Below, piece after piece: positions 8,575-61,083 of a stretch of DNA of 64,000 bases (within the stretch, counting starts at the first letter, position 1; each line of letters starts with the position of its first letter). Below the pieces are notes generated by a model. The model was not told the DNA's origin. It did no database searches and saw nothing but the letters and a program-made list of their open reading frames with translations. Source of the stretch: Agelas oroides (lineage: Eukaryota; Porifera; Demospongiae; Agelasida; Agelasidae); assembly GCA_949130485.1 (NCBI GenBank), contig OX422183.1, positions 4,476,136 to 4,540,135 of the forward strand, read 5' to 3'. Made by a program: the position numbers and the translations under genes.

Positions 8575-11500
8575 ATGGGGATTGATCTTGCCACATGGCG
8601 GGCTCGAATTGGGCTCAACTACTACCACATGTGTCGCCCCCTCCAGACCAGGTGGAAAAATGGTGGTCAGCTGTACCAGCCTGGGGTGGCCAGCTGGGGC
8701 GTGGGGGAGGTCATGAGCGACACACCCCTGGTGCTCAAGGGCTGCATGACAGTTGTTGCTCTGTCACTGATACTGCAGTATGTAGTCCATTCCTGGTCCA
8801 AGCTGAGGGGGAGGGGTGGGGGTGGCAAGGTGCGCTGCCACTGGAGGGGAATTACTTCTCGAGTGAGGAAAACACTGAATGGTGGGAGCACATTGCTGTT
8901 CAGAGCTATTTTGGTGGTGGTACACTTATTGCTGATGATATCAGGAGATGTGGAGCTAAACCCTGGACCTGAAGGTAATTGTGTAAGATTTGAAAGGCAT
9001 TGTGCTCAATGTACATAACAATTGTAGTAGACCAAGTGACACTATTGTTCTGTATCATTTCTGTCCTAGCAGGCTGTGCCCTAGTCACACTCCAGGGTGA
9101 GAGATGGTCAGGCTTGATAGACTAGCTGTGCCCAGAATTCCCAATACCCATTTCTTCCAACTACACAGTTATCTTTATCACACAACACACAATATGGTGG
9201 CTGCATGATATATGTAACTGCTTGTTTGCAAATCATGCCAAAACAATGAATTCCAATGACCTATTGCTGTAGAAGATACATATCACTGTGACACTGATGA
9301 AATGTCTCCTTCGGGTTTCATTCAGAAGTTTCAACCTGGAATAGACCAACCTTGCAATGACAAGCATTCACAAACTTTGCAAAAAACAAGCACATCAGAT
9401 TGCATACCATTTAACTACACAGTGTACCTGTTACCTACACAGACTTTGGACAGTGTTTGTAATTCATTTCTAGTTCTAAGCCCAATTTATAATGGCATCA
9501 TAACCTCTTTTTAAAATGTACATCTGCATGAGCTTGAGTAATCCATGCAATCAGAAGAGATGTATCAAACTATCAATGCACATCCACCGAGTGTGTCATA
9601 CATGGTTGCCTGAATCAAGGCATTAAAGAAGTATGTAGTAGATTTTCTTCTTGAATACACAGAACCAAGTCTGAAAGCACTTCTTAATGAACTTCATCCA
9701 GTTCGGGCCAGCTGGTTTATGATTGGACTGCAGTTGGACATCCCTCACACTGAACTGATCTGCTTCAGGCGAATATGTTCTGATTTCTCACATTCATTGT
9801 GTGAAATGTTGATGCATTGGTTAAAAACAGCTGTTGATCCACCTCCTACCTGGGAAGCAGTTGTCACTGCCTTGAAATCACCAACAGTAAATGAGAAGTA
9901 CATTGCGGCTCAGCTGGAATCAAAGTATTGTACACCAGTACAGCATGTCATGGAGGAGTCCAGCAACCCTACCAGTATGGAAAAGAGTGAAGGTAGCTAC
10001 TATTTTATGACATTGGAGTTATGAAAAGGAATTGTGTATTCTATAGGTACCATGCAAGAACTCACAAGAAGCATGGAGAATTAACTGTCAGCATCTCTTA
10101 AATGTATTTGTAGATGTTTTCATTACCTTACATTATTTACACTGTCTGCAGCTGTTCATCATAGGACTATTGCCAGCTCTACTGAAAATCAATTGAGAGA
10201 TCAAAAAGTAGAATTTCACACTAGCTCTACACCAGATTCAAAAAGCCCTATTACCAGCGCAACAAAACACACCACCACCTCTCCAAGTGAGGGGTCTCAG
10301 AAATCACCATTTGGGTGTGGGTGTGGCAAGTGCACATTCTTCAGCTTCATAGAGAGTGGCTGTCCAACACCCATCCCCTCAGCAAGCTCCTTCCCCTACC
10401 TTGACCTCAGTGGACTCACCCACGAACAAAAGCAGGAACTGAGGGGACGGCTTCAGTTTGAATCCCGAAATATAATGATACGATTCCAAAAGCTGGTGTC
10501 GACAACAATCAAGTCATTCCAAAGACGGCGCTTACCACTGGATGAGCTTGTGTCACATGTAATGACTCTTGGAACATTTGACCCTGTGCTGAAGGAGCCA
10601 CAAGTGCCAGTATTTTGCCATTACTTCAAGGAATTAAAAGCTGCAGACACTATCCCAATGGTTTTCATGGTTCTTAATGACTACTTTTCCTTCTTCAACT
10701 ATCACATCATTGAGCACATTATCGAAGAACTTGGCACAGAGGAAGATAAGTCTGAGCTACAGAGGTACATAGAAAGTTTTAATGAATATGCAAACAGAAG
10801 GGTCTTTGAATGCCTACCAGGGTTTGGACCAGTAAGTGATGCTGATCATGCTGATATGTTTGTGAAAGTGGACTCCAAATATGACAAGTATACTGTTGCA
10901 GAGATTGAGGAGTTCCGTCATAAACTCAGTGAAATCCTACGTGTTTCAACCCAAGGCATTTCACGCCTCTGTCGAGTTGATAAAGGTTGTTTTCAGCTGA
11001 TTTTCCAAGTGGCTTCATTTGTACAGCAGGAGATATTTCCACTGTCCAGGGAACAAGAGAAGGCTCTGACAACCATTGGTGTTATCAAACTTACATGTGG
11101 GAAGTACCTGTTCAAGGTAAAGTTGTCTGTGGGTGTAACAGTCAATACCATGTTAACTGTTAATTGTATTGGTTGTGGAATGAGGTATGGAGATTGTTAC
11201 TTTACAATCAGTAATAGAAATGTATCAGCGAGTCGGTAGACTCTCTGTGTAGGGATGTGTACATTAGTGTTGACGAGTGACAAACCTTTGTTTCCTTACA
11301 GAAAGATGAACCATCACAAGCTGGAGTTCGTATGTCCAATCTCATATTACCTATCTGACACTTATCTCACATTTAATTCTGTCTGTCTTTGTCCTTACAC
11401 AGAAAAGAAACACCAGGATGATACAGATGATGATTCTGGTATGGGTCCCAGCATATCCACTGACACAAAGAGCACCACTTTTTCTGAGGTAAGCTACTAT

Positions 11501-14406
11501 TATGTGCAGTATTGTGTGACCACTACTGCACACACTTCCTCTTATAGGGTCTTCTGTCCACAGAACAAGAAATTGATCTGTTAGCCATGGGTGTTACATG
11601 TGGGGACCAGCTTCTGGTAAGGTTGTCTGTGATTACTGTAGGTTTTGGAATGAGGCATGGAGGCTGTTGATGTTAAATAGATAATGGAAATTAACATACA
11701 TTGGTGTTACTGTGTTATGTATAACTTTCGTTTCTCTATACAGAAAGATGAACCATCACAAGCAGGAATTGGTATGACTGTGCAGTTTAGGCTCTACATA
11801 TATAGCTATTGTCTACAAAAAATGTCTTACATTTTGCCTTCCATTTTGTCACTCATGGTTTTCTGTTTCACAGAGAAAAAACACAAGCGTGATCCTGATG
11901 GTGATTCTGACTTTGGCATATTCACTGACACAAAAAGTACCACATTTTCTGAGGTAAACTGTTACCACCATCTGTAGTGTTGTGTAGCCAATCATACATG
12001 TACTTCACTCCTCTACCTCTAGGATCATCTGAACAAAGAACTGAAGGAACTGGACTATGAACTGAAAGTACAGGGTCTTGTAGAAATAGCATCCTCTCCC
12101 AAGTCTGGGAGTGGCCTAAAGCTCCACATAGCTGTAGCAATGGGGCAGTTGGAATATGTTAACTTTCTTGTTGAGAAGAAGCACTACAACCCAATGCAGA
12201 CCATACAGAATGGCTTTGCTCCCTTTCAGTTGGCAGCAATTGTAGGAAATGTCCAGGTATTGAAGTATTTCATCACTGAGAGGAGCTGCAGCCCAGCATG
12301 TCCAGGCCCACTTGGCTTAACACCCCTTCATTTAGCTAGTGGACAAGGTCATCTTGATGTGGTTAAGTTTCTAGTTACTGAACAGCAGATGGAACCACTG
12401 TGTGAAGATGAGTTTGGAAACACTCCACTGCATAGAGCTTGTGCAGGTGGCTATCAGGCAGTTGTTGAGTTTCTTATTTCAGAACATAAGAAATATACCC
12501 CCATTACAGAAATTGTCAGTGATATGAAGAACAAATGGAACAGTTTACCTATTCACAATGCAGTATCAAATGGTGACTTAAGTATAATTCAATATTTTAT
12601 GTATGACCTGAAGTGTGACCCAAACGTTCCAGGTCAGTATGGTGGAACTCCCCTTCATTATGCAGCTGAGTTTGGTCATCTGCACATACTGAAGTATTTA
12701 ATTGATCAGCAAGGCTGCAATCCATCAAGTTTGAATGACCTGAAACAAACTCCACTTCACTCTGCTGCCAAGAACGGACACATGGATATTGTGAAGTACC
12801 TTACCGTAGAGAAGCATTGTGACCCAACATGTAAAGATTCCAAACAGAATACTCCTCTTCATAAGACAGTACATAATGGTCATATAAACATAGTAAAGTG
12901 CCTCACTGTTGAAAAGCACTGTGATCCAACAAGTAGAAATGCCAATGGTGACACTGCTCTACACATTGCAGTAGTGAATGGGCATTTGGACATAGTCCAC
13001 AATTTTTCATCTCAGATTGGAAATGTGACTCAAACTTTCCAGGTCAATGTGGTAGAACACCTCTTCACTATGCTGCTGAATTTGGTCATCTGCACATAGT
13101 CAAGCATTTAAATGACCAGCAAGGCTGCAATCTATCATGTCTCGATGAAAACAAGTACACTCCACTTCACTGTGCTGCCACAAGAGGACACATGGACATT
13201 GTGAAGTTTCTTACTGTGGAGAAGCATTGTGACCCAATGTGTAGAGATTCCAAACAGGATACTCCTCTTCATAAGTCAGCACTCTACGGTCACATACAAG
13301 TAGTTAAGTTTCTCACTGTTGAAATGCACTGTGACCTATCAAGTAGAAATGCTTTCAATGACACTGCTCTAAATCTAGCAGTAGAACGTGGACATTTGGA
13401 CATACTCAAATTTTTTATCTCAGATCAGAAGTGTGACCCAAACATTCCAGGCCAGTATGGTGAAACTCTTCTTCACCGTGCTGCTGAGTGTGGTCATCTG
13501 AACATAGTCAAGTATTTGATTGATGAGCAAGGCTGCAATCCATCATGTTTGGATGAAGACAAGTACACTCCACTTCATTGTGCAGCTATAAATGGGTATG
13601 TGAATATTGTGAAGTTTCTTGCTATGGAGAATCACTGTGACCCACTGTGTAGAGATTCCGAACAGAATACTCCTCTTCATAAGACAGTACACAATGGTCA
13701 CATGGAAGTAGTTAAGTTTCTCACTCTTGAAATGAACTGTGACCCAAGAATTAGAAATGCCAACAGTGACAATGCCCTACATATAGCAGTAATGAATGGA
13801 CATATGGACATAATCCAATTCTTCATCTCTGAGCTGAACTGTAACCCTAACGTTCCAGGTCAGTATTGTAAAACACCTCTTCACTATGCTGCTGAGTTTG
13901 GATATTTGCACATAGTCAAGTATTTTACTGACAGGCAAGGCTGCAATCCATTATGTTTAGATGAATTCAGGTACACTCCACTTCACTATGCTACAGTAAG
14001 AGGGCACATGGATATTGTGAAGTTTCTTATTGTGGAGAAATGCTGTGATCAAATGTGTGGAGATATCAAGCTAAATACTCCACTTCATATGGCAGCAATA
14101 AATGATCGTAAAGATATAGTTAAGTTTCTAACTCTTGAGATGCATTGTGACCCGTTGTCCAGAAACATAAAAGGCAATACTGCTCTTCACTTTGCAGCAC
14201 TGTTTGGTCGCTTAGAGATTGTTAAGTTTCTTGTTGAGGAGTTGAAGTGTCCTCCAGACATCCAAGGGGCACTTAACATGACCCCACTCCAACTGGCTCT
14301 ACGCAAAAAACACCTTGATGTTGCTCAATATCTACAGAAGCACAGTGTAATACCTTACATATACACTGCTATAACTACGATGAAGCAGCTTGGACTCCTG
14401 AAATAG
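8575..14406 (+). CDS. Gene A: 2A leader-Death domain-ankyrin repeat protein, frameshifted
   Basis: Exons by GT-AG boundaries and paralogue comparison: 8575-8974, 9663-9992, 10152-11116, 11302-11329, 11403-11488, 11548-11616, 11744-11771, 11874-11953 and 12023-14406. The start ATG is the one conserved in all four paralogues. Residues 1-133 are the leader, with hydrophobic segments and GDVELNPGP at residues 124-132. Exon 2 is a Death domain (W..IG..L, MLMHWL, PTWEAVVTALKS). Exon 3 carries CGCGKC and a helical region. The last exon is ankyrin repeats (TPLH.AA..GH) ending MKQLGLLK. Two extra bases near 12999-13002, absent from gene D, shift the frame, so translation as given stops at 13099 (about 1020 aa). 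The repeat frame resumes at once and runs to 14406. The last exons are duplicated once (see findings). It may be a recent pseudogene, an allele or an assembly error. Confidence 0.8.
8944..8970 (+). other. 2A-like ribosome-skipping motif, gene A
   Basis: Encodes GDVELNPGP, an exact match to the D(V/I)ExNPGP signature. Established behaviour of such motifs is that no peptide bond forms between the final G and P, here after position 8967. The exon ends four bases after the proline codon. A hydrophobic run (AILVVVHLLLMIS) precedes it. Confidence 0.85.
8975..9662 (+). other. Intron 1 of gene A
   Basis: GT-AG intron of 688 bp in phase 1. The stretch around 9310-9410 resembles 53400-53500 in the first intron of gene D, for instance CATCAGATTGCAT.CCA, which supports common descent of the two genes. 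No separate gene is seen in it. Confidence 0.65.
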
Positions 14407-16119: not shown

Positions 16120-16379
16120 TTAAGGTGGCACGGTACCCTGTATTTTCAAGGTCAACAAACCTGGAATCCAAGTTGATAGTCTTCTTTGTCTTGTTAAAAT
16201 TTTAGCGCACATTCCGTTTTGGGAGTCTCAAACCGTTCACGGTCCGTAAAATTGGGGATTTTCCCCATTTCCTGTCGGCATTGCCATCCAATAATCAGTT
16301 TATAATTAAGTTAGTTAGGATGTGGCCTGGCGGCACCCTTCATGTGGTGCTCGGAACTTTGAAGATAAGCTTAGATCGA

Positions 16380-16417
<38 letters not shown>

Positions 16418-18086: not shown

Positions 18087-18123
<37 letters not shown>

Positions 18124-20789: not shown

Positions 20790-23700
20790 ATGGGGATTGA
20801 TCTTGCCACATGGCAGGCTCGTATTGGGCTCAACTACTACCACATGTGTCGCCCCCTCCAGACCAGGTGGAGAAGCAGTGGTGGTCAGCTGTACCAGCCT
20901 GGGGTGGCCAGCTGGGGGATGGGGGAGGTCATGAATGACACACCCCTGGTGCTCAAGGGCTGCATGACAGTTGTTGCTCTGTCACTGATACTGCAGTGTG
21001 TAGTCTGTTCCTGGTCCAAACTGAAGGGGAGAGGCAAGGCACGCTGCCACCAACAAGCAACCGTGTCTCGAGTGAGGGGGAAAGTGGATGGTGGGGGGAC
21101 CCTGCTGCTCAGAGCCATTGGGGTGGTGATACCTCTCCTGCTGGTGATAGCAGGGGATGTGGAAACAAATCCAGGACCAGAAGGTAAAATGTAGGTAGCT
21201 AAACACTACTGGCATGCAGTGCACCTTACCCTTAGTCAGTCACTTAGTGTAAGGATTAACGAGTGGCACTGCAACTGTATTTACAGGTACAGCACTGACA
21301 TTGAAAGCTGCCATTAATGCACTGCATTCAGTGTGCCCCAAGTGGTATAACATTGGAGTACAACTAGAAGTTCCAACATTTCAACTCAAGAACATTGAGA
21401 AGAAAACAAGTGACTTAATGGACCAGCTACGTGATACACTGGACTACTGGATGGACCATGACGCTTCCCCCTCCTGGAGACATCTTATTGATGCACTGAA
21501 AGCTCCCAGTGTTGGTGAGAACCGGTTAGCTGAAGAAATAGACGAGAAGTATTGTGATCCAGAGGAGCTAAGTAGCTGTGATGAGTCAGAAGCATCAGTT
21601 CAAAACAAAGGTCATCAAGGTACATATAAGCTTTAATTTTGCTATCTACACCAAAACTGTGTGAATTTACTTAGTGTGTTCTTTTCTCTGATGAAGTTCT
21701 CAGCCAAGCCAAGAAGACAAATCCAAGTGTGCCTACCTCAAAAAGCACAACAACCAGTGTGGCAAAACACAGCAGCAGTATCAGCCACTCTCCAAGTGAG
21801 GGGATTGAACCAGTGCGAAAGAAACCACATGATATTGATGCCAAACCTGATGATGCCAGTACCAGTGCGCCTCCAAGTGAGGGATCTCAGAAGCCACCAT
21901 TTGGGTGTGGGTGTGGCAAGTGCACATTCTTCAGCTTCATAGAGAGAGGCTGTCCAACACCCATCCCCTCAACAAGCTCCTTCCCCTACCTTGATCTTAG
22001 TGGACTCACCCATGATCAGCAGCAGGATCTGAAGGCAAGGCTTCGGTTTGAGTCTGAGAAGATAATGATGCAATTCCAAAAACTTGTTTCAGCAACAATC
22101 GAGTCTCTCAACAGACAAAATGTATCACGAGATAAGTTACTGTCTCATATCATGACTCTGGGAACATTGAAACCTGTGTTTGAAGAGCCACAGGTGCCAG
22201 CACTCCATTATCGCTTCAAAGAACTGAAAGCTGCAAAGACAATCTATGAATTTTTCCTGGTTCTTAATGACTACTTTTCCTTTTTCAACTACCATATGAT
22301 TGAACACATTATTGATCTTGGTACTGAGGAAGATAAAGCTGGACTACAGAGGTACAAGAAAGACTTTAATCAGTATGTGAAGCGAAGAATCTTTGAATGC
22401 CTGCCAGAATTTGGACCAATAAGTGATGCTGACCATGCTGATATCATTGTGATCATTGATTCACAGTATGACTACACAGTTGCCGAGATTAAGTGGTTCT
22501 GTCTTAAACTCAGTGAAATTCTAGATGTTCCCCAAGGCATTCTACGTCTCTGTCGAATAGATAAAGGTTGTTTTCAGCTGATGTTTCAGGTACCTTCATC
22601 TGTGCAGCAGAGGATTTTTCCACTGTCTAGAGAACAAGAGAAAGCTCTGGCAGATATGGGAGTCATCAGGCTCACATGTGGGGAGTACCAGTTCCTGGTA
22701 AAGTTGTCAATGTTTCTAATCATTGAAATGAGGCTGTTGCTGAATAATGGATGATGGAAATATTTGTTTCTGTTTCCCTACAGAAAGATGAACCATCACG
22801 AGCAGGAGTTGGTATGTGCATTCTGGGCTTCATTATGTCTTACATTCTGCCTTTCATTGTGTCAATCACACATACTATTCCATTTCACAGACAAGAAATA
22901 CCAGCATGACCCTGATGATGATTCTGGCATGGGTTCCAGCTTATTCACTGACACAAAGAGTACTACTTTTTCTGAGGTAAGCTATACACTATGATTCCAA
23001 ACGCATGTAGTGTCATATAACATATATATCCCCTTTTCCATTCTAGGACTGTCTAGACAGAAAGCTGAAAGAACTGGACTACGAGCTAAGAGTGCAGGGT
23101 CTTGTAAAAACAAAATCTTCCCAGAAGTATTGCAGTGGTTTAGAGCTTGACCTTGCAATAAGAATTGGACAATTGGAGGATGTCAGGTTTTTAGTTGAGC
23201 AGAAGCACTGTAACCCAATGCAGAGAGATCAGCATGGCATTACTGCCTTTCATATGGCAGCACATGAAGGAAAAGTACAGGTGTTTAAGTATTTTGTCAT
23301 CAAGAGTAACTGCAACCCAGCATGTCCAGCTGGTTCTCTTTGCTTAACACCCCTTCACTTAGCTAGTCAAGAGGGACATCTTGATATGGTCAAGTATCTG
23401 GTTATTGAACAGCAGATGGATCCACTGTGTGAAGATAAGAATCAAAACACTCCACTGCATACAGCTTGTGCAGGTGGCCATCAGGCAGTTGTTGAATTTC
23501 TTAATTCAGAGCTTAAACATCTTCCTATCACTAAACTCATGAGCAACCTCCAGAATAAATGGAACGACACTCCCCTTCACTGTGCGGTAGTATGTGGTCG
23601 CCTGGGCATACTCCAATACTTCATCCGTCAAAAATGTGACCCAAACATTTCGGGACAGTATGGTCGAACTCCTCTTCACTATGCTGCTGAGTTTGGTCAT

Positions 23701-26430
23701 CTGTACATAGTCAGGTATTTGACTGACAAGCAAGGCTGCAATCCATCATGTTTGGATGACAACAAGTACACTCCACTTCACTGTGCTGCCATGAAGGGAC
23801 ACATGGACATTGTGAAGTTCCTTACTGTGGAGAAACACTGTGATCCAATGTGTAGAGATTTGAAAGAGGGCACTCCTCTACATATGGCAGCACTAAATGG
23901 CCACATAAAAGTAGTTAAGTTTCTCACTCTTGAAATGCACTGTGAACCAACAAGTAGAGATGTTAATAATATCACTGCTCTACATGTAGCAGCAATGAAT
24001 GGACATTTGGACGCAATCCAGTTCTTCATCTCTGATCAGAACTGTAACCCAAACACTCCAGGAGGTCTGTATGGTAGAGCTCCTCTTCACTATGCTGCTC
24101 AGTTTGGCCACCTGCACATAGTCAAGTATTTGACTGGTGAGCAAGGCTGCAATCCATCATGTTTAGATGAACACAAGGACACTCCACTTCACTTTGCTGC
24201 CATGAAGGGGAACATGGCTGTTGCAAAGTTCCTTACTTTGGAAAAACACTGTGATCCAATGTGTAGAGATTCAGATCAGAACACTCCTCTTCACAGGGCA
24301 GCACAATATGGCCATATAGAAGTGGTGAAGTTCCTCACTTCTGAAATGCACTGTGACTTAACATGTAGAAATGCTAGCAACATGACTGCTCTACACTTAG
24401 CAGTAACAACAGGGCACTTGGAGGTAACTAGATTCTTCATCTCTAATCAAAAGTGTGATCCAAATCTTCCTGGTCAGTATGGTAGAACACCTCTTCACCT
24501 AGCTGCTGAGTTTGATCATCTCAACATAGTCATGTATTTGATAGATGAGCAAGGCTGCAATCCATCATGCCTGGCCAAACTGAAACACACTCCACTTCAT
24601 TGTGCTGCAGAAAATGGGCACTTGGACATTGTGAAATTTCTTACTGTGGAGAAACACTGTGACCCAATGTGTAGAGATCTTAATCTGAACACTCCTCTTC
24701 ACATGGCAGTACACAATGGTCACATAGAGGTAGTAACGTTCCTCATTATTGAGATGCATTGTGACCCAACAAGTAGAAATGCTGACAATCACACTGCTCT
24801 ACATCTAGCAGTACTGAATGGACATTTGGGCATAGTTCAATATTTCATATCTGATTGGAACTGTGACCCAAATATTCCAGGAGGTCAGTATGGTAGAACT
24901 CCTCTTCATTATGCTGCTGAGTGTGGCTATCTGCATATAGTCAAGTATTTGACTGATGAGCAAGGCTGCAGTCCATCATGTTTAGATGAACACAAGCTCA
25001 CTCCGCTTCACTGTGCTGCCATGGAGGGGTACATGGAAATTGTGAAGTTTCTTACTGTGGAGAAGCACTGTGACCCAATGTGTACAGATTGTTATCAGAA
25101 CACTCCTCTTCACAGAGCATCACTAGATGGTCATATACATGTAGTAAAGTTCCTCACTCACAAGATGCACTGTGACCCAACAGGTAGAAATGCTAATAAG
25201 GCCACTGCTCTACATCTAGCTGTAATGAATGGGCATTTGGACATAGTTAAATTTTTCATCTCTGATCAGAAGTGTGACCCAAACATTCCAGGTCTGTATG
25301 GTGGAACTCCTCTTCACTATGCTGCTGAGTTTAGTCATCTGCACATAGTCAAGTATTTGATTGAGAAGCAAGGATGTAGTCCATCCTATTTAGATAAACA
25401 CAAGTACACTCCACTCCACTTTGCTGCCAAGAAGGGACACATAGACATTGTGAAGTTCCTCACTCTTGAAACACACTGTGATCCAACATGCAGAAATGCT
25501 GACAGTGTCACTGCTTTACATCTAGCAGTAGTGGAAGGTCATTTGGACATACTCCAATTCTTTATCTCTGATCAGAACTGTGACTCAAACATTCCAGGAG
25601 GGCAGTATGGTGGAACTCCTCTTCATGGTGCTGCTGAGTGTGGTCATCTTAATATAGTTAAGTATTTGACTGATGAGCAAGGCTGCAATCCATCATGTTT
25701 GGATAAACACAAGTTCACTCCACTTCACTGTGCTGCCTTGAATGGGCACAGGGACATTGTAAAGTTTCTTACTGTCCTGAAACATTGCGACCCAACGTGT
25801 AGAGATTCTGAACAAAATACTCCTCTCCACAAGGCAGCCCTAAATGGTTATATAGATATTGTAAAGTTTTTTACTCATGAGATGCACTGCAATCCAACAA
25901 GTACAAATGCTAACCAAGCCACTGCTCTACATCTAGCAGTAGAGAAAGGGCATTTGGACATAGTCCAATTCCTCATCTCTGATCAGAAATGTGACCCAAA
26001 CATTCCAGGTCTGCATGGTCAAACTCCTCTACACTATGCTGCTTGGTTTGGTCATCTACACATAATCAAATATTTGACTGATGAGCAAGGCTGCAATCCA
26101 TCATGTTTGGATGAAGACAAGTACACTCCACTTATCCTTGCTGCAAGTAGGGGGCACTTGGACATTGTGAAGTTCCTTAGTATGAAGAAACACTGTGACC
26201 CAGTTTCACAAGAAATACTTCATTGTGCAATAGTAGGTGGTCACTTAGAGATAGTCAAATTTCTTATTGAGGAGCTGAAGTGTCCTCCAGACATCCCAGG
26301 ACCACAAAATATAACCCCACTTCAACTGGCTATACTTGTGAATCAGTCTGACATTGCTCAGTATCTACAAAAATACAATGCAATATACACCGCTATAGCT
26401 ATGATGAATCAGCTTGGGCTTCTGAAATAG
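20790..26430 (+). CDS. Gene B: intact 2A leader-Death domain-ankyrin repeat protein, 1741 aa
   Basis: Exons: 20790-21183, 21287-21619, 21697-22697, 22784-22811, 22891-22976 and 23047-26430. All junctions are GT-AG and phases agree (1,1,0,1,0). Residues 1-131 form the leader, with hydrophobic stretches near residues 65-75 and 110-121 and GDVETNPGP at 122-130. Residues 132-242 hold a Death domain (KWYNIGVQL, LDYWMDH, SWRHLIDALKAP). Residues 243-576 hold a Ser/Pro-rich linker, CGCGKCTFFSF and a helical region (NDYFSFFNYH, RRIFECLPEFGP). Residues 577-614 are a short acidic linker. Residues 615-1741 are about 31 ankyrin repeats of 33-35 residues, ending MNQLGLLK. After 2A skipping, a 1612-residue product starting with proline is expected. 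The role is probably adaptor or sensor signalling (inference). This is the only fully open copy. Confidence 0.92.
21153..21179 (+). other. 2A-like ribosome-skipping motif, gene B
   Basis: Encodes GDVETNPGP at residues 122-130. The predicted break lies between G129 and P130, after base 21176. A hydrophobic run (AIGVVIPLLLVIA) precedes it, and the exon ends four bases after the proline codon, as in the paralogues. Confidence 0.87.
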
Positions 26431-34099: not shown

Positions 34100-37000
34100 A
34101 TGGGGATTGATCTTGCCACATGGCGGGCTCGAATCGGGCTCAACTACTACCACATGTGTCACCACCTCCAGACCAGGTGGAGAAGCAGTTGTAGTCGGCT
34201 GTACCAGCCTGGGGTGGCCAGCTGGGGGGTGGGGGAGGTCATGAATGACACACCCATGGTGCTCAAGGGCTGCATGGCAGTTGTTGCTCTGTCACTGATA
34301 CTGCAGTATGTAGCCCATTCCTGGTCCAAACTGAAAGAGAGGGGTGGGGGTGTCAAGGTACGCTGCCACTGGTGGGTGTCCACTTCTCGAGTGAGGGGGG
34401 CAGTAGATGGTGGGGGGACCCAACTTTTGAGAACCTTGGTGGTCATTCCTCTACTGCTGGTGATAGCAGGAGATGTGGAGATAAATCCAGGACCAGAAGG
34501 TAATGATGTAAAGTAATAGCTTGCTGTGCAAACACATATCCTTTCTCTTTTCATGCTCGCACAGAGCCAAGTCTGCTTGATCTGCTTGAGGAACTGTATC
34601 CAGTCTGTACCAGCTGGTACAACATTGGACTGAAGTTACAAATTCCAGTCAGTACACTGGACCGCTTCAAGCAAATGTACACAGATCCTTTGGAATTAAT
34701 GTGTGAAATGCTGAAGCATTGGTTACAGACAGCTGTTGATCCATGTCCCACCTGGAAAGATGTAGTCACTGCTTTGAAGTCACCTATAGTGGACAAGATC
34801 ACTGTTGCTGCCCAGCTGGAGTCAAAGTATTGTGCACCAGTACAACATAAAATGGAAACGTCCAACAGACCAACCCAGGGAGACACATATTTGGATTAAT
34901 ATACAGGTACTGTCACTGTCTTACTACACTGTTGTGAGGGCCTTCTGGGGCTGGTGTAGAACATGCATGAGATTGCCTGCTTTGATTGGTTCATAAGAGC
35001 TGTAAAGTCATGAACTTTGCAGAAGGCTAAATAATGAAACTATTAAACCTAGTATCTCTCTCATGCCAAGGGCCTAGAACAAGTCAGAAGCCACCGTTTG
35101 GGTGTGGGTGTGGCAAGTGCACATTCTTCAGCTTCATAGAGAGGGGTTGTCCAACACCCATCCCTTCAGCAAGCTCCTTCCCCTACCTTGACCTCAGTGG
35201 ACTCACTCATGAACAACAGCAGGAACTCAAGGGAAAGCTTCTGTCTGAGTCTCGAAAGATAATGATATGATTCCAGGAGCTAGTGTCGGCAACAATCAAG
35301 TCATTTAAGAGACGATGTATTCCACTAGATGTTATGACTCTTGGAACATTTGATCCTGTGTTCAAGGATTCACAAGAGCCAGTGTTCCTCCATTTTTTCA
35401 AAAAACTAAAAGTTGCAGAAACTATCCCTAAGGTCTTTATGATTCTTAATGACTATTTTTCCTTCTTCAACTACCACATCATTGAGCACATCATCAAAGA
35501 ACTTGGTACAGAAGAAGACGAAGCTGAGCTACAGTGGTATAAAGAAGATTATGCAAAGCGAAGGATATTTGAATGCATGCCAGAGTTTGGACCGATGTGA
35601 TACTGATGACCATGCTGACATATTTGTGAAAGTGGACTCGCAATATGAGAACTTCACTGTTGCAGAAATTGAGGGGTTCCGTCATATACTCAGTGAAATC
35701 CTAGGTATTTCATCCCAAGGTATTCTGCGTCTCTGTCAAGTAGAAAAAGGTTGCTTTCAGCTGATGTTCCAGGTACCCTCATTTGTACAGCACATTTGCC
35801 GTCATTTGTGCCAATATTTCCATTATCTAGAGAACAGAAGAAGGCTCTGACCACTCTGGGTGTGATCAAGTTCACATGTGGGGAGTACCTGTTCCTAGTA
35901 AACTGGGTTTCTAACCTTATTGTTGTGCATTGTTAACATTTTTACTATTTGGTGTTACTGTAGGCATGTGGAAATGAAGTATGTTTGCTAATGTGTATTA
36001 TATTTTGGTTCTTACAGGAAGATAAGCCATCACAAGTAGGAGTTGGTATGTTAACTCTGTCATAATTATGCAACAGTTAGTAGTCTCACATTCACATGGT
36101 TTGCCATTTTACAGACAAAAAACACTGTCATGACACTGATGATGATTCTGGAATTGGTCCCAGCATATTCACTGACACTAAGAGCACCACATTTTCTGAG
36201 GTGAGCTAGTACCTCCCCCAGTACATGTAGGCCTGTAAACTGTTCTTCTGCATTAGGATCGCCTGGACAAGGAGATGAAGGAACTGGAATCTGGTAGTGG
36301 TTTAGAACTCCATTTCACAGTAGTAATGGGAGAGTTGAAGGATGTCAAGTATCTTGTTGAGAAGAAGAACTGCAACCCAATGCAAAGGGATCAGAATGGT
36401 TTTGCTTCCTTTCATGTTGCAGCAACTGTAGGAAATTTTCATGCATTTAAATACTTTATCACCGAGAGTAATTGCCAACCCAGCATGTCCAGGCCCACTT
36501 GGCTTAACACCACTTCATCTAGCTAGTGAACAAGGTCATCTTGATGTAGTCAAATATCTGGTTACAGAACAGCAAATTGATCCACTTTGTGAGGATGAAT
36601 ATGGAACACTCCACTGCATAGAGCTTGTGTAGGTGGGTGTCAAGCAGTTGTTAAGTTTCTTACTTTAGAACTCAAGAAGTATTCTCCCGTTACCGACCTT
36701 GTGAGTGACCACAAGAACAAATGAAACAGCACTCCTGTTTACTGTGCAGTAGCTAGTGGTCACTTGGGGATACTCCAGTTCTTCTTCTCGGATCAAAACT
36801 GTGACCCAAACCTTCCAGGACAGCATGGTGAAACTCTTCTTCACTATGCTGCTGAGTTTGGTCACCTGCACATAGTCAAATATTTGACTGATGAGCAAGG
36901 CTGCAATCCGTTATGTTTAGATGAGTGTGATGCCACTCCACTTCACTGTGCTGCCAGGAAGGGACACATGGACATTGTGAAGTTCCTTAGTGTGGTGAAG

Positions 37001-40253: not shown

Positions 40254-40373
40254 GCTGTACTGCGTCTATTAAGTCTCGCGAGCCACGCCCTTCAGTGTGG
40301 GCTAGTCTCGTTCCCAGATCCCATCCTTTGTAGTCTGGGAACGAGACAAATTACGACTCGCGCTCGAGCTAGC

Positions 40374-48100: not shown

Positions 48101-48375
48101 AAAACAAACATCAGATTATGAATGTACACACCAAATGGGACTGTTTGATACCCATTTGGTATAGTTTGGTCAAGTATAGCTGTTTCGGGCCTGAAATTGT
48201 TAGTTACAAGTAACCGATATGTACAAGTGGTAAAATCACAACTGTACCTAGACTATTTTTGAACCACTTATACCAAAATGAAAACAAACATCAGATTATG
48301 AATGTACACATCAAATGGAACTGTTTGATTTTGTATAGTTTGGTCAAGTACTAGCTGTTTCAGGCCTGATTCATA
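42195..48375. repeat. Satellite array, ~34 monomers of 176-181 bp
   Basis: The phrase AAATGGAACTGTTTGATACC recurs at 42208, 42389, 42570, 42746 and so on, giving monomers of 181, 181 and 176 bp. Types are told apart by CACCTGGACTATTTTTGAAC, CACCCAGACAATTTTCAGAA and ACCGATACGTTGG. Larger periods of 1258 bp (7-mer, about 43.2-45.7 kb) and 1075 bp (6-mer, about 45.6-47.7 kb) are visible through shared private variants. It is bounded by unique sequence on both sides and is non-coding. Confidence 0.95.
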
Positions 48376-51726: not shown

Positions 51727-54700
51727 ATGGGGATTGACCTTGCCACATGGCGGGCTCGAATTGGGCTCAACTACTACCACAGTTGTCGCCCCCTCCAGAC
51801 CAGGTGGAGAAGCAGTGGTGGTCGGCTGTACCAGCCTGGGGTGGCCAGCTGGGGGGTGGGGGAGGTCATGAGCGACACATCCCTGGTGCTCAAGTGCTGC
51901 ATAACAGTTGTTGCTCTGTCACTAATACTGCAGTATGTAGTCCATTCCTGGTCCAGGCTGAGGGGGAGGGGTGGTGGTGGTAAGGTGCGCTGCCACTGGC
52001 AGAGGACCACTTCTCAAGTGAGGGGTACAGTGGATCGTGGGTGGATGATGCTGCTCAGGGCCGTTGTGGTGATGATACCTCTACTGCTGGTGATAGCAGG
52101 GGATGTGGAAACAAACCCAGGACCTGGAGGTAAGTATTGCTCAGGGGAGGAGGAGGTGGTGCAACAAGGTGTTATCAATTACACTGTACAATTTAATTGC
52201 ACCAAGGTGTGGGTTATCACAGCTTCAGCACCATTGTTCCTCAATATGCCATATTCTAGCCTCGTTCCCAGGCCTTTCCACCATGTTATTGATCAAAATT
52301 TGGACAGTGGGAAGGCCTGAGAACAACTGCTTCAGATTTCCGTCACATGATGAAGTGCCATTGTGCTCAATGTAACAATTTTGTAGTGAACTAGAAGGTG
52401 CCATTGTTCTATATCTACCATATTCTGAATTGTACTGTATCAACTGTTCCAACTAGGACAGGTGTTTTTACATTCCAACAAAGAGTTCGTCACATGACAA
52501 ACAGCATCAGTGAAACAACTTTGTAGACGCTTCTGTATCTGAACTTACTGTACTGTACCCCCACAACTGCAGTAGTATATGGAGATACTATACATGGTGG
52601 TAACTGTGGAGTCCCTCGGTCTGCTATAGTATTATTATTGACAGGACTCAGAACCTGGGTGGACTAACCCACCTGACATCACAAATATTGGCTGGGAGGT
52701 TTAGCCGTGGGTAATTGTAATAAAATAGTTTGTCTGCCTTGATGTTAAGGTACGTATGGTTTTGGGGGACCGAGGCAACAATGTGTGTTTTCAGATGTGA
52801 GAGTGTCTAACCTGAATGAATCATCTTAGTCTTCAACTGGATGAATGCTACAGATATCTTCAAGGTATCAATGAGTCTGTGGAAAGATACTTCAGCCCTT
52901 ATAATCTCCTGAGTACCACTGTTGGTATGGGGAAAGCTGCCAAACTTACCTACGAGTATCTCGCATCCCTACTTTCCATCAATCATCATCAACCCTTGTC
53001 ATTATGGTATGCCCCCCTTCTTGTTACTCTGCCACGCTGTACTGTTCCTAAAAGGATCCAGATCAAAAAAGTGTACAGCAAAGGATCCAGATCAATAAAA
53101 AGGTCTGTGTTCTTCACTTTGATACACATCTCAACTTGTGGCACATGAGGATCATGTTCCTTGAACATTGCATATTATCATATATGATTTTATGTTTCTT
53201 TCCTAGTGCACTGTGCCTGCATTTTCACACTAAACCACACCTGTTCTTGCAACTTCACCTCTTTGCATGCCTGTGCAATATATATATTACACGAGCATAT
53301 ATATGATATATACTGCAGTGTAAAATACCAAACATTGTGAGACTGGTACAGTTTGCCAAACACCTTCTTCAGGTTACACTGAATGGTGTATGTTTGCAGC
53401 TTCAGAAATCACAAAAGTTTCAAAGTCCTGCCAACCTTGTAATGATAGGTATTCACAAGCTGCAAGTCATCCAACACATATCAGATTGCATGCCAATTGG
53501 TAATTGAGTACCTGCAGATTTTTTTTTGCATGGCTACACATAGTAAAAGGCATCTTCATCATTACAACTGAGTGAGTAAGTCAATCAGCTAAATGCTACA
53601 CAATACATTCTAATTGGTTCAAATTTATCAAATTGCTATACTTCAGGTACAAGTGTGTACAGTATATGAAACTAATAAATGTGGTTAAAGTAGTTCACAT
53701 ACGTATAAAGTATACAGGCAATGAAAGATATGCATGCCTTTTCTCCTCACAAACACCACAGAACCAAGTCTGAGGGTCCTGCTCATTGAACTTCACTCAG
53801 TTCGTGCCAACTGGTACAACATTGGACTGGAATTGGGTATCCCATATACCACACTGGATTGTTTCAAACAAAATGACAATGATCAATTGGTTTTACTGCG
53901 GGAAGTGATGAAGCATTGGTTAAAAACAGTTGTTGATCCACGTCCTACTTGGGAAGCCATTGTCACTGCCTTGAGGTCACCTTTAGTAAATGAGAAGGAT
54001 GTTGCTAAGCAGCTGGAGTCTAAGTATTGTGCACCAGTACGACAGGAGTCCAGTTCCTTCATCAAGGTGGAGAAGAGCGAAGGTATGTAGCTTATCTAGT
54101 TTCCATAACTTCAAGCTACTAAGCATTTATAATTCCAGGTATGTAATTATCTTACTGTTATGTGTACCTTCTGCAGCTAGTCATAAGAAGATTACTGCCA
54201 GCTCTACTGAAAGCCAGTTTAAAGATCAGCAATGTCACACTTGTTCTACTCAAGATTCACCAGGCCCTACTACAGATAGTGCAGTAAGACACAGTGGCAG
54301 TACCATCTCTCCTGCAGATGACGACATTGAACCAGTGCAAAAAAAACCACGATGTGATATTGAAACCAAACCTGATGGAGGCAGTGCCGGCCCCCCTCCA
54401 ACTGAGGGATCTTACAAGACACCATTTGGGTGTGGGTGTGGCAAATGCACATTTTTTAGTTGCACAGAGAGAGGTTGTCCAACACCTATCACCTCAATAA
54501 GCTCCTTCCCCTACCTTGACCTCAGTGGACTCACCCATGAGCAGCAAGAGGATCTCAGGGGAAAGCTTCAGTTTGAGTCTCAACAGATAATACTGCAATT
54601 TCAGGAGCTAGTTTCAGCAACAATCAAGTCTCTAATTAAAAGAAATGTATCACGAGATGAATTGGTGACACATGTCATGGCTTTGGGAGCATTTAAGCCT

Positions 54701-57700
54701 GTGTTCAAGGAGCCACAAGTGCCAGCATTTCACCATTGCTTCAAAGAACTGAAAGCTGCGGACACAATTCCAAAAGTTTTCCTGGTTCTTAATGACTACT
54801 TTTCTTTCTTCAACTACCACATTCTGGAGCACATCATCAAAGAACTTGGCACAGAAAAAGACAAAACTGAGCTACAGAGATACAAGGAACATTTTAATCA
54901 GTACGCAACGAGAAGGATCTTTAAATGCCAGCCAGAGTTCAGACCAATAAGTGAAGCTAATCATGTCAATATCTTAGTGAAGCTGGACTCCCAGTACGAT
55001 GAATACACTGTTACAGAGATTAACCCTTTAGGGCCCATAGCGCCAAAAGTCGCACTTTTGACTTCGTACTTTTTTGTGGCTTCTCACTTTGAAACTAAGT
55101 TCGCCCACGAACTAGTAGTCTTGCTTGTAGTTTGTTAGTGTTTCCACTCTCTAGGACTGTAGTAATAAGGGCGGGCAACGGTTCTGAGCAAAGCAGCGAG
55201 AAGCTGTTCAGACGGAGACCACCAGCTAGCGATAATATCGATCGAACGGTACAAGTAGGCAGGCTTATTTTGCCTTCGTTTTATGTTTACCTGGAGTAAC
55301 GCTCCCGCTGTGAGCTACTATGGACCTCTCCTCTCCAGCAGCAAAGCAGGTGATAACATCCAACCAGAGAACAGACAGCTTTACACAAGCCTTCGGCTAG
55401 TACTCCCGCCGCGTGGCTACCTCAGTGTGGCCCCACCCCTTGAATCCCACCCCTTCCTGCCTAGGATAACAATCATTACTAATCATTACTAGTAACTATC
55501 GGGGCATACCCCCAAGGCATAGAGAAGCCGTAACCGTTGCCGTAGGGCAGGATGGGAATTGCTACGCACAGTGGAAGCAGTTATATCAGCAGCCATACCA
55601 CGTGAAGAAAATTTCCATATAAATCTGGGCCCTAAAGAGTTAAGCTGTTTTATTATAAACTTAGTGAAATCCTAAATGTTTCATCCCAAGGTATTCTGCG
55701 TCTTTGTCGAGTAGATAAAGGCTGTTTTCAGTTGATGTTTCAGGTACCCTCATTTGCGCAGCAGATGATATTTCCATTGTCTAAAGAACAAGAGAGAGCT
55801 CTGGCAGCCATGGGTGTTATCAAGCTCACGTGTGGGGAGTATCAGTTCCTGGTAAAGTTGTTGATGTTTCTATTTGTCTACTGTAAGTTGTGGAATGAGG
55901 CTGTTGTTGTGTACCTGATGTGGTGATTATAGAAATGTGTGTGTGTGGCCCTAGTAATGTCAATTTTACGTAATCATTGTCACAGTGTATCTGCAAATTA
56001 ATGTGGGTATTGAGTTAGTAACACGGACATCCCTGTAAGTCTACTTGTTATATTTTTTACACAGCATGACACTATGGTTTGATTGTATTTACATTGTTGA
56101 TAAAAAATATATGTACTTTTGTGTTTCCTTACAGAACAATGAGCCGTCACAAGCAGGAGTTGGTACGTGGTGCATTCTATACGCTCTACATTGCAACTAA
56201 ATCTCACAATCTGTATCGATCATAGTTTGCCATTCTAGGCTCTTAATTATTAGCCTACCATTCTGTTTGTCAATTTCTTCACAGAAAAGAAACATCAGTA
56301 TGATCCTGATGATGATTCTGGCATGGGTCCCAGCACATTCACTGACACAAAGAGCACTACTTTTTCTGAAGTAAGAAAATCACACCTCCCCAATATATGT
56401 TTATTGTTGTTTGACCACTCATGCATATACCTTCCTCTTCTGCACTAGGATCGTCGGGACAAAGAGTTGGACTATGAACTGAAAGTGCAGGGACTTATTG
56501 AAACAGCATCGTCCAACAAGTCTGATATTGGTTCAGAGCTCCACTGGGTAGCAGCAGTTGGACAGTTAGCAGATGTCAAGTATCTTGTTGAGAAGAAGAA
56601 GTGCAACCCAATGCAGAAAAATCACGCTGGCTCCACTGCCCTTCACATGGCAGCAATCACTGGAAATGTGGATGTTTTTAAGTATTTCATAACTGAGAGT
56701 AACTGCAACCCAGCATGTCCAGGCCCTCTTGGATTAACACCTCTTCATTTCGCTAGTGATCAAGGGCATCTTGATATAGTCCAGTTTCTGGTTATTGAAC
56801 AGCAGATGGAACCACTGTGTGATGATGTGCATGGAAACACTCCACTGCACAGAGCTTGTATAGGTGGTCATCAGGCAGTTGTTGAATTTCTTACCACAGA
56901 AATTAAGTACCTTCCTATGAGTGAACTCATGAGCAAACTCCAGAATGAATGGAAAGACACTCCTCTTCACTATGCAGTGGTGAAGGGCCACTTTGACATA
57001 GTCCACTTCTTTACCTCTGAACAGAGTTGTGACCCAAACCTTCCAGGTCATCATGGTAGAACTCTTGTCCATGCAGCTGCTGAGTTTGGTCATCTACACA
57101 CACTCAAGTATTTGACAGATGAGCACGGCTGTAATCCATCCTGTTTGGATGATTTGAAATACACTCCACTTCATTGTGCTGCCATGAAGGGGCACATGAA
57201 CATTGTGAAGTTCCTTACTGTGGAGAAGCAATGTAACCCAATTTGTAGAAATTCTGATCAGAACACTCCTCTTCACTTGGCAGCGTCATGTGGTTATACG
57301 GATATAGTTAAGTTTCTCACTCTTGAGATGGACTGTGACCCAACTAGTAGAAATGATACCAATGATACTGCTGTACATCTAGCAATAGATAAAGGACATT
57401 TGGACATAATCCAATTTTTCATTTCTGATCAGAACTGTGATCCAAACATTTCTGCCCAGTATGATAGGACTTTGCTTCATTATGCTGCTGCATGTGGTCA
57501 TTTGCACATAGTCAAGTATTTGATCAATGAACAAGGTTGTGATCCATCATGCTTGGATAAAGACAAGCTCACTCCACTTCATTGTGCTGCTGCAAAAGGA
57601 CGTATAGATGTAGTCCATTTCCTTATTGTGAAGAAGCATTGTGATCCAATGTGTGCTATTCATATGGCAGCACAGAATGGTCATATGGAAGTAGTTAAGT

Positions 57701-60700
57701 TTCTCACTCTTGAACTGCACTGTGATCCAACAAGTAGAAATGCTGACAGTAACACTGCTCTACATCTAGCAGCAATGAATGGACATTTGGACGTACTCAA
57801 ATTTTTCATCTCTAATCTAAACTGTGACCCACACACTCCAGCTCAGTACTGTAGAACTCCTCTTCACTATGCTGCTGAACATGGCCACCTTAACATAGTC
57901 AAGTATTTGATTGATGAGCAAGGCTGTAATCCATCATGTTTGGGTGAATGCAAGTACACTCCACTTCACTGTGCTGCCCAGGAAGGTCACATGGCTGTTG
58001 TGAAGTTTCTTACTGTGAAGAAAAACTGTGACCCAATGTGTAGAGATTCTGAACAAAACACTCCTCTTCACATGGCAGCACAAAATGGCCACACAGAGGT
58101 GGTTAAGTTCCTCACTGTTGAGATGCTATGTGACCCTACAATTGGAAATATTTTCAACCACAATGCTTTGCATGTAGGAGTTCAAAATGGGCATTTAGAC
58201 GTAATCCAATACTTCATCTCTGATCTGAACTGTGACCCTAACATTCCAGGAGGTAACTATGGTAGAACTCCTCTTCACTATGCTGCTGACTTTGGTCATC
58301 TGCACATAGTCAAGTATTTGATTGATAAACAAGGTTGTGATCCATCATGTTTTGATTGTGACAAGTGCACTCCACTTCACTGTGCTGCCATGAAGGGGCA
58401 TATTGACGTTGTGAAATTTCTTACTATAGAGAAGCACTGTGACCCAACTAGTAGAAACACTGACAATGTCACTCCTCTGCATATAGCAGTGAAAGCTGGA
58501 CACTTAGACATACTTGCATTCTTCATCTCGGTTAGCAATTGTGACCCAAACATTCCAGGCCAGGGTGGTGTAACTCCTCTTCACTATGCTGCTCTTCTTG
58601 GTCATCTGCACGTAGTCAAATATTTGACTGATGATCAAGGTTGTGACCCCTCATGTTTGGATGAACTCAGACTCACTCCACTTCACCATGCTTGTGCATT
58701 AGGGCACATGGAAATTGTTAAGTTTCTTATTGTAGAGAAACAATGTGACCCTATGTCTAGAAATTCCCGACAAGGTACAGCTCTTCACTGGGCAGTACAA
58801 AGTGGTCACATTGAAATAGTTAAGTTTCTTACTCTTTACTGTGACCCAACATGTAGAAATGCAGACAGTGACACTGGTTTACATCTAGCAGCAAAACATG
58901 GACATTTAGACATACTCCAGTACTTCATCTCTGATCAGTACTGTGATCCAAACATTCCAGGAGGTCAGTATGGTGGAACTCCTCTTCACTGTGCTGCTGA
59001 GTGTGGTCACCTGCACATTGTCAAGTATTTGATTGATAAACAAGGCTGTGATTCATTATGTTTAAATGACCTGAAACAAACTCCACTTCACTGGGCTGCC
59101 ATGAAGGGACACATGGACATTGTGAAGTTCCTTATCATAGAGAAGCACTGTGATCCAATGTATAGAGATTCCCAACATAGTACAGCTCTTCACTGGGCAG
59201 TATACAGTGGTCACATTGAAGTAGTTAAGTTTCTTACTCTTAAAAAGAACAGCGGCCTGACAAGTAGAAATGTTCACGATGCCACTGCTCTACAGAACTG
59301 TGACCCAAATATTCCAGGTCAGCATGGTGGAACTCCTCTTCACTATGCTGCTGAGTTTGGCCATCTACACATTGTCAAGTATTTGATTGATGAGCAAGGT
59401 TGTAATCCATCATGTTTAAATGACTTGAAACAAACTCCACTTTACTGTGCTGCCAAGAAGGGACACATGGACATTGTGAACTTCCTTGCTGTGGAAAAAC
59501 ACTGTGACCCAATGTGTAGAGATTCCAAACAGAGTACTCCTCTCCATAGGGCAGCACAGAATGGTCATATAGAAGTAGTTAAGTTTCTCACTGTTGAACT
59601 GCACTGTGATCCAACAAGTAGAAATTCTAACGGTGACACTGCTCTACACATTGCAGTAGTGAATGGGCATTTGGACATAGTCCAATTTTTCATCTCAGAT
59701 TGGAAATGTGACCAAATCCTTCCAGGTCAATGTGGTAGAAATATTCTTCACTATGCTGCTGAATTTGGTCATCTGCACATACTCAAGTATTTGAATGATC
59801 AGCAAGGCTGCAATCTATCATGTCTCGATGAAAACAAGCACACTCCACTTCACTGTGCTGCCACGAGAGGACACGTGGACATTGTAAAGTTTCTTACTGT
59901 GGAGAAACACTGTAACCCAATGAGTAGAGATTCCAAACAGGATACTCCTCTTCATAAGGCAGCACAGAATGGCCACGTACAAGTAGTTAAGTTTCTCACT
60001 GTTGAAATGCACTGTGATCCATCAAGTAGAAATGCTTACAATGACACGGCTCTACATCTAGCAGTAGCAAATGGGCATATGGACATAATCCAGTTCTTCA
60101 TCTCAGATCAGGACTGTGACCCCAACATTCCAGGAGGTCAGTATGGTAAAACTCCTCTTCACCGTGCTGCTGAGTGTGGTCATCTGCATGTAGTCAAGTA
60201 TCTGATTGATGAGCAAGGTTGCAATCCATCATGTTTGGATGAAGACAAGTACACTCCACTTCACTGTGCAGCTATAAATGGGTATGTGAATATTGTGAAG
60301 TTTCTTGCTATGGAGAAAAACTGTGACCCACTGTGTAAGGATTCCGAACAGAATACTCCTCTTCATAAGACAGTACATAATGGTCACATGGAAGTAGTTA
60401 AGTTCCTCACTCTTGAAAAGAACTGTGACCCAACTTGTAGAAATGCTAACAATGACACTGCTCTACATGTAGCAATAATGAATGGACATATGGACATAAT
60501 CCAATTCTTCATCTCTGATCTGAACTGTAACCCAAACATTCCAGGTCAGTATTGTAAAACACCTCTTCACTATGCTGCTGAGTTTGGCTATTTGCACATT
60601 GTCAAGTATTTTACTGACAAGCAAGGCTGCAATCCATTATGTTTAGATGAATTCAGGTACACCCCACTTCACTATGCTACAGTAAGAGGGCACATGGACA

Positions 60701-61083
60701 TTGTGAAGTTTTTTATTGTGGAGAAATGCTGTGATCCAATGTGTGGAGATATCAAGCTAAACACTCCACTTCATATGGCGGCAATAAACAATCGTAAAGA
60801 CATAGTTAAGTTTCTAACTCTTGAGATGCATTGTGACCCAATGTCCAGAAACATAAAAGGCAATACTGCTCTTCACCTTGCAGCACTGTTTGGTCGCTTA
60901 GAGATAGTTAAGTTTCTTGTTGAGGAGTTGAAGTGTCCTCCAGTCATCCAAGGAGCACTTAACATGACCCCACTCCAACTAGCTCTATGCGAAAAACACC
61001 TTGATGTTGCTCAATATCTACAGAAGCACAGTGCAATATACACTGCTATAGCTATGATGAAACAGCTTGGACTCCTGAAATAG
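51727..61083 (+). CDS. Gene D: largest 2A leader-Death domain-ankyrin protein, exon 3 split by a transposon
   Basis: Exons: 51727-52129, 53762-54082, 54177-55851 (interrupted), 56135-56162, 56285-56370 and 56449-61083. The leader has 134 residues with GDVETNPGP at 125-133. Exon 2 is a Death domain (NWYNIGLEL, VMKHWL, PTWEAIVTALRS). Exon 3 holds CGCGKCTFFSC and the helical region. A 616-bp TTAA-flanked element sits at codon TTA of the ...TEI segment, and as read the frame stops at 55136-55138. Both sides match the paralogues and are in phase with each other (1055 coding bases without the insert and one TTAA). The last exon is one open frame of 1544 codons, about 44-45 ankyrin repeats, ending MMKQLGLLK. 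The reference allele may yield a leader plus a truncated Death-domain product; removal by splicing or an insertion-free allele (2175 aa) is possible but unproven. Confidence 0.85.
52099..52125 (+). other. 2A-like ribosome-skipping motif, gene D
   Basis: Encodes GDVETNPGP at residues 125-133, with the predicted break after base 52122. The hydrophobic run AVVVMIPLLLVIA precedes it. The exon ends four bases after the proline codon. Confidence 0.87.
52130..53761 (+). other. Intron 1 of gene D
   Basis: A 1632-bp phase-1 intron. It contains a diverged TAGCCTCGTTCCCAGG element (52257-52328) and an open frame at 52816-53148. 53400-53500 matches the gene A intron. It is more than twice as long as the gene A intron. 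Confidence 0.6.
52816..53148 (+). CDS. Unrecognised open frame in intron 1 of gene D
   Basis: 110 codons from ATG (MNHLSLQLDECYRYLQGINE). The first ~70 codons look protein-like; the end contains a repeated GGATCCAGATCAA and looks non-coding. It has no known domain and no counterpart in gene A. It is likely a fragment of an inserted gene or repeat rather than an active gene. Confidence 0.2.
   Translation: MNHLSLQLDECYRYLQGINESVERYFSPYNLLSTTVGMGKAAKLTYEYLASLLSINHHQPLSLWYAPLLVTLPRCTVPKRIQIKKVYSKGSRSIKRSVFFTLIHISTCGT
55024..55639. mobile_element. TTAA-inserted piggyBac-type non-autonomous element in gene D exon 3
   Basis: Flanked by TTAA at 55020-55023 and 55640-55643. The ends are inverted: CCCTTTAGGGCCCA on the left and TGGGCCCTAAAGAG on the right. 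TTAA targeting and a CCC-type start match piggyBac-like elements. It has no transposase. Excision at TTAA would leave GAG ATT AAG, which keeps the frame of the paralogues. Confidence 0.88.

Follow-up and report, generated by a model that had tools for sequence, protein, structure and literature searches.

The 64,000-nt window considered here (positions 4476136-4540135 of contig OX422183.1, below C1, in the 259-Mb genome of the sponge Agelas oroides) carries four paralogous genes, all on the plus strand, in which a leader exon terminated by a 2A ribosome-skipping motif precedes a Death exon, which is followed by a helical/RRM-like domain and by ankyrin repeats. These genes probably belong to a large family of death-fold proteins, intracellular sensors or adaptors, in which the first exon encodes a membrane protein that is released separately via ribosome skipping. 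The exon order, splice phases, motif, conservation and family size are established at the level of the sequence. Exon 1 would give rise to a leader of about 130 residues, in which a conserved patch at the N-terminus precedes two hydrophobic helices, and the second helix is predicted to run into the GDVExNPGP motif. At the last Gly-Pro bond the nascent 2A chain would induce skipping, so that the leader is freed, and translation would resume at the proline, yielding a soluble Death - helical/RRM-like - ankyrin protein. In the latter, the ankyrin array, whose length varies in steps of about four repeats, is the likely recognition part and the Death domain the likely signalling part, while the leader would insert in the membrane as an equimolar partner and the unskipped fraction would be membrane-tethered. 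If the motif is active, an animal lineage couples a membrane peptide to cytosolic sensors by skipping, and does so on a large scale, which would offer natural variation for testing the function of the leader and the way in which the product ratio is set. The accessible part of Li (2026; PMC12846837) treats ribosome skipping as a viral device that is rare in cells.

The 2A motif and its predicted junction to the Death exon

Each of the four leaders in the window ends, as was originally predicted, with an exact DVExNPGP core on the plus strand, preceded by G (x being L, T, I and T in genes 1-4, respectively), and each core closes an open exon starting with MGIDLATW. The cores are beyond chance occurrence, since the strict 2A DNA pattern had 177 matches in the genome versus 0 for the reversed pattern. 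The phase-1 intron claimed to follow the motif immediately is supported by the sequence as well: the donor, GAAG/GTAA or GGAG/GTAA (the slash marks the splice site), lies four bases past the core in all four genes, and the Death exons open at phase-1 acceptors (CACAG/AA, CACAG/AG and TACAG/GT). The same phases prevail in the family at large, for which 64 distinct leaders were extracted by a pattern that required NPGP and an M..TW start; 46 of them belong to subfamily A, the kind present in the window, and 18 to subfamily B (one of the latter being L022 on contig C2), the leaders of these divergent subfamilies being about 46% identical. A G/GT donor no more than 18 nt from the core occurred in phase 1 in 62 of the 64 leaders, in phase 0 in two and in phase 2 in three. 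On the acceptor side, an in-frame phase-1 AG precedes the Death domain in 29 out of 29 places (which include two duplicate pairs, L001/L069 and gene 4/L009), and a pyrimidine-rich YAG within 30 nt upstream of the Death start was in phase 1 in 26 of these places, in phase 0 in one and in phase 2 in none.

For the retention of the motif, 68 of the 80 leader loci detected in the genome (see below) were fetched. A search of leaders without the NPGP requirement gave 71 rows, of which 69 belong to subfamilies A and B (68 loci, gene 4 appearing twice) and two, L072 and L073, to another leader family. NPGP was kept in 67 of the 69 rows (66 distinct loci, gene 4 again appearing twice), i.e., in all 67 that reach the end in frame; both rows without it, L032 and L043, are frame-broken. 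The core residues lying outside the extraction pattern are almost invariant among the 64 leaders (G in 64, D in 64, V in 63 and E in 63), their synonymous codons being varied. The sequence upstream of the core is L-rich with AG or SG right before D in all 64 leaders, which agrees with the recognised type of 2A upstream context (L-rich, A/S/C-G before D); according to the accessible part of Li (2026; PMC12846837), such a context defines the LLLLSG-like class, motif 6 of which was active in an assay. Relatives in the public protein database were listed in three sets of 120 (out of 745, 429 and 760), and NPGP was kept in 119 of the 120 leader matches listed of 429. The near invariance of the core with varied codons, the presence of NPGP in each in-frame row and the retained L-rich context argue against the possibility that the 2A is a relic or otherwise inactive, and that a single membrane-anchored Death-ankyrin protein is made. 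We consider this improbable, even with regard to the statements in the same part of Li (2026) that the activity needs context beyond the core and that chimeric 2A sequences are often inactive.

Sequence and constraint of the leader

The leader comprises about 130 residues, starts with MGIDxATWRARIG and has two hydrophobic helices: two 19-residue stretches with Kyte-Doolittle values above 1.6 were detected in 63 of the 64 leaders, at about residues 54 and 106, and a hydrophobic stretch directly precedes the 2A. The hydrophobicity assigned to the leader in the original prediction was thus borne out, but the leader is more than a hydrophobic peptide, being a conserved protein with a constrained N-terminal patch. 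A PROSITE-style N-myristoylation pattern at Gly2 fits 62 of the 64 leaders and serves as a weak hint only. Comparison of the leaders with Pfam returned weak, inconsistent matches only.

The ratios of nonsynonymous to synonymous variation (pN/pS), given here in the order within A, within B and between the subfamilies, are to be taken as indicative, since the copies compared are relatives among which sequence exchange may occur. For the N-terminal patch they were 0.11, 0.48 and 0.16 with all columns and 0.14, 0.51 and 0.20 without the columns forced by the extraction pattern; for the WGVGEVM motif, 0.27, 0.05 and 0.22; for the 2A core, 0.15, 0.02 and 0.09 with all columns and, for GDVEx without the forced columns, 0.20, 0.07 and 0.18. 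The loop (0.65, 0.63 and 0.71) and the second helix (0.51, 0.95 and 0.73) had higher values. The N-terminal patch is therefore well conserved within subfamily A and between A and B, and not clearly so within B. Conservation of this patch suggests a specific role for the released leader or for the unskipped fusion.

The main rival explanation, which can coexist with the two-product reading, is dual targeting as in sea-urchin NLRs, whereby the leader would act mainly as a signal or signal-anchor, the 2A would set the share of cytosolic versus secretory or membrane product, and the freed leader would be waste. A link to these NLR leaders was drawn in the original prediction and agrees with the available portion of Roulston (2016; PMC4981915), where SpNLR2A of Strongylocentrotus purpuratus is described as having a 26-residue leader before Death-NACHT-LRR, and dual targeting is demonstrated for this leader. 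In both cases host genes with many paralogues carry an N-terminal 2A with a Death-fold immune-type protein downstream; additionally, the hydrophobic stretch directly before the 2A and the presence of a 2A-led Death-NACHT NLR in the A. oroides genome fit dual targeting. The leaders of the window differ from the SpNLR2A leader, as far as the latter is described there, in their length of about 130 residues, two hydrophobic stretches, the conserved N-terminal patch and an exon of their own, and the window genes have ankyrin repeats in place of NACHT-LRR. Such a length, together with a first hydrophobic stretch that lies near residue 54, is unlike a classical signal peptide. Moreover, the patch and WGVGEVM are conserved between the subfamilies (0.20 and 0.22 versus 0.71 for the loop), which is not expected of waste, although the value of 0.51 for the patch within subfamily B tempers this objection. 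Considering both sides, dual targeting appears to us a rather unlikely, though serious, explanation.

The genomic family and other 2A-led genes

A 133-residue leader query produced 86 matches, merged into 80 loci of the two divergent subfamilies; all genome counts are lower bounds, only the best candidates having been scored. Contig C1 harbours 53 of the loci, C3 harbours 17, and ten are spread over six other contigs. The stretch of C1 from 4.04 to 5.11 Mb holds 35 leaders, of which 34 share one strand, with a median spacing of 17.8 kb, and a second one-strand group of 16 leaders occupies C3:325-818 kb. Hence, clustering of the genes was predicted correctly and its extent was not: instead of a tandem cluster of four there are about 80 loci, and the window is a slice of a larger array. 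For 72 of the 80 leader loci the helical/RRM-like (middle) domain is present on the same strand, no more than 12 kb downstream; the pairing was based on 116 of 148 middle-domain rows (32 fragments and weakest rows being excluded), all 86 leader rows and the 100 listed of the 177 motif places. One of the excluded rows, C1:4410792, lies downstream of a leader that was counted as having no domain. Among the first 20 ten-kilobase loci the middle domain follows the leader in 17 and is not within the stretch in L015, L021 and L022. At least 64 of the 100 listed strict 2A sites belong to the leader family with spliced-looking first exons.

Beyond the leader matches, 36 motif places were listed (at least one of which, C3:678104, abuts a partial leader), and 22 distinct ones were read: seven resemble PHD-bearing retrotransposons (assigned by a Pfam scan for L071 and L079 and by eye for the rest), fourteen resemble gene leaders, and one is neither. 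The phase-1 G/GT just past NPGP is clear in thirteen of the gene-like sites and probable in one. The non-LTR (long terminal repeat) retrotransposons share with the window leaders the 2A core and a hydrophobic upstream run; unlike them, they have (as in L079) a PHD finger and an endonuclease directly after the 2A, in one open reading frame (ORF) with no splice donor. The occurrence of 2A motifs in these elements, the leaders with no middle domain in reach and the non-cDNA-like database ORFs described below would be in line with exon 1 being a separate small gene or a retroelement fragment merely situated upstream of the Death-ankyrin genes. Nevertheless, no match to PHD, endonuclease or reverse transcriptase was obtained with Pfam in the 13 leaders scanned, and both subfamilies share the order, the strand and the splice phase, the last of these with its phase controls, so that we regard this explanation as highly improbable.

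The WRA(R/K)IG sequence near the N-terminus is present in five of the fourteen gene-like leaders (L072, L073, L088, L083 and L087), with WRARV in L082, and in none of the seven retrotransposon-like ORFs; a phase-1 donor comes immediately after the 2A in these six leaders. Downstream of the leader, L001/L069/L092 exhibit a Death domain (45% in tblastn, E 3.5e-17), a homologous middle domain and NACHT (E 5e-16), L069/L092 being a 2A-led Death-NACHT NLR at C1:609-613 kb. Death (E 0.0015) and Roc (E 2.4e-4), both below Pfam's cut-offs, follow in L085/L091; COR-A (E 9e-9), about 2.3 kb from the leader, in L083/L089; and Death (E 2.1e-4, just below the cut-off) in L087/L090. The Death profile included the segments of L001 and L090, which makes their scores with it circular, and independent support comes from tblastn for L001 and from Pfam for L090. 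In the leader exon the WRxRIG start is absent for the NACHT and Death-Roc genes and present at L083 (Roc/COR) and L087 (Death). The Death-NACHT NLR resembles the window genes in its 2A leader, the phase-1 junction to Death and the homologous middle domain, and differs from them in the leader exon without WRxRIG and in NACHT instead of ankyrin repeats.

For the middle domain, neither the Pfam search nor a PDB sequence search with its profile gave anything useful. Its profile matches, however, the stretch preceding NACHT in the NLR of the same genome (hhalign probability 95.3, E 2e-8, 199 columns), which places the window family, through its Cys/helical domain, as a branch of an NLR-type set rather than an isolated 2A-Death-ankyrin system. 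Elsewhere in the genome a Death-NACHT NLR and a Death-Roc gene are likewise headed by 2A leaders, and some other 2A leaders share the WRxRIG start. Judging by its sequence, the window family is thus the branch with ankyrin repeats within a wider set of death-fold sensors that carry 2A leaders. A more tentative reading, somewhat less likely than not, is a portable WRxRIG-2A leader module: a conserved small membrane protein, freed by ribosome skipping, would have been joined via phase-1 introns to Death-ankyrin, Death-NACHT and Roc/COR sensor families, so that each sensor would be born with one copy of a related membrane partner. In the AlphaFold2 model of the middle domain (mean pLDDT, i.e., predicted local distance difference test, 72.6) the N-terminal part is helical, and the C-terminal part has the order beta-alpha-beta-beta-alpha-beta with Gly-Cys in the turn between strands 2 and 3; in the part of the eLife 2021 paper available (PMC8195603), an RRM-like fold with a tiny-(S/C) turn at this position is given as a feature of TRADD-N. 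The best structural matches were nuclear-pore chains, ribosomal protein S6 and ACT-type domains; no TRADD chain was among the structural matches listed, an absence that leaves TRADD-N a candidate.

As described in the same part of PMC8195603, Amphimedon has a very large lineage-specific expansion of Death / TRADD-N / ankyrin proteins, to which the window genes are similar in the Death-fold N-terminus, the RRM-like domain with a G-(S/C) turn (TRADD-N being here a candidate only), the frequent ankyrin repeats and the expansion itself; unlike the window genes, those of Amphimedon are presented there with no mention of a 2A or a membrane leader. In the accessible text of the NLR paper on Dysidea avara (PMC12909245) both "2A-like" and "ankyrin" have 0 occurrences. 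To judge from the available parts of these sources, N-terminal 2A on host NLRs and Death/TRADD-N/ankyrin expansions in a sponge are already known. None of the literature searches made turned up the long conserved leader, the 2A-Death-ankyrin combination or the WRxRIG start shared between leaders, though the survey of eukaryotic and viral 2A sequences by Rao (2025; Cell Rep 44, 115822) may already list such genes.

Several points weigh against a family of skipped, two-product sensors. Splicing, skipping and membrane insertion are deduced from the sequence, and an immune role is suggested by analogy only. Of the 80 leaders, 8, including both C2 copies near 5.1 Mb (L021 and L022), have no middle domain in reach, and for 44 of the 116 middle domains a leader within reach is lacking. 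The other 12 of the 80 loci are mostly partial matches, so NPGP retention holds for near-complete copies; the pN/pS values that include the forced columns are partly built in, because NPGP and M..TW were required at extraction, and the N-terminal patch is weakly constrained within subfamily B. The residue before NPGP is mostly T, R or L, the S of the class described in the accessible part of Li (2026; PMC12846837) being absent. Lesions were found in three of the four window genes, gene 2 being the only intact copy. Finally, six database ORFs that join the leader and Death, considered as cDNA candidates, were rejected, as they look like genomic read-through with short in-frame introns.

Domain content and layout of the window genes

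The Death domain claimed for the second exon was recognised by PF00531 in all four genes, with E of 0.0071, 1.2e-5, 6.4e-5 and 0.0016 for genes 1-4, respectively, of which genes 2 and 3 only passed Pfam's own cut-off. At E <= 0.1 the same family was detected in 18 of 18 Death exons (window and fetched loci), the best value being 1.9e-6, and the profile of these exons matched FADD in the PDB at E 0.0014. The ankyrin repeats, also claimed previously, are unambiguous, with 24 PF00023 stretches in gene 2 and 34 in gene 4; NACHT had no match in the scanned pieces of the window genes. The ankyrin exons display a higher period that in most cases measures 387-411 bp (about four repeats), with 309 and 354 bp occurring as well, and a higher-order repeat of ~408 bp (four ankyrin units) is seen at 12610-14153, 23628-25486 and 59293-60841. 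Such a period of about four repeats suggests recent internal amplification of these exons. The predicted layout was recovered in each of the four genes, of which gene 2 alone is intact.

Gene 2 (20790-26430) is the reference copy: its six exons join into a 1741-residue ORF without an internal stop, with GT-AG borders at 5 of 5 introns. The leader and 2A occupy exon 1 (20790..21183; core DVETNPGP at 21156-21179) and the Death domain exon 2 (21287..21619). They are followed by exon 3 (21697..22697), which encodes a Ser/Thr-rich linker, a Cys/helical segment and an RRM-like (TRADD-N-like) segment, a 28-nt micro-exon 4 (22784..22811) with canonical GT-AG and the frame kept, an acidic exon 5 (22891..22976; DPDDDSGMG..FTDTKSTTFSE) and exon 6 (23047..26430) with ankyrin repeats and the stop.

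Gene 1 consists of exon 1 with the leader and 2A (8575..8974; core DVELNPGP at 8947-8970), exon 2 with the weakly scoring Death domain (9663..9992), an open frame with the linker and helical/RRM-like domain (10085..11236) and an ankyrin exon (12023..14403), which is in two frames with a lesion near 12953-13096. The region of the micro-exon and acidic exon is present twice in this gene, at 11298-11945, perhaps as a duplicated exon pair. In gene 3, exon 1 (34100..34499; core DVEINPGP at 34472-34495) and the Death exon 2 (34565..34890, the 3' end being approximate) are followed by exons extending to ~37987, in which an internal stop and several changes of frame occur. Gene 4 includes exon 1 (51727..52129; core DVETNPGP at 52102-52125), the Death exon 2 (53762..54082), open frames that cover the linker and the helical/RRM-like domain (53990..55923), the first of which overlaps the end of the Death exon, and an ankyrin exon with 1544 open codons and the stop (56449..61083). 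An insertion of ~614 bp at about 55025-55638 interrupts its middle domain.

Apart from the four genes, the window contains a tandem repeat with a unit of ~146 bp at 2277-3671, which has an open reading on the minus strand too, and, between genes 3 and 4 at 42189-48369, a 181-bp unit repeated in tandem about 34 times. A 311-aa open frame of a 2OG-Fe(II) oxygenase (PF03171, E 2.9e-20) is located within the sensor-gene array on the minus strand at 39333-40265.

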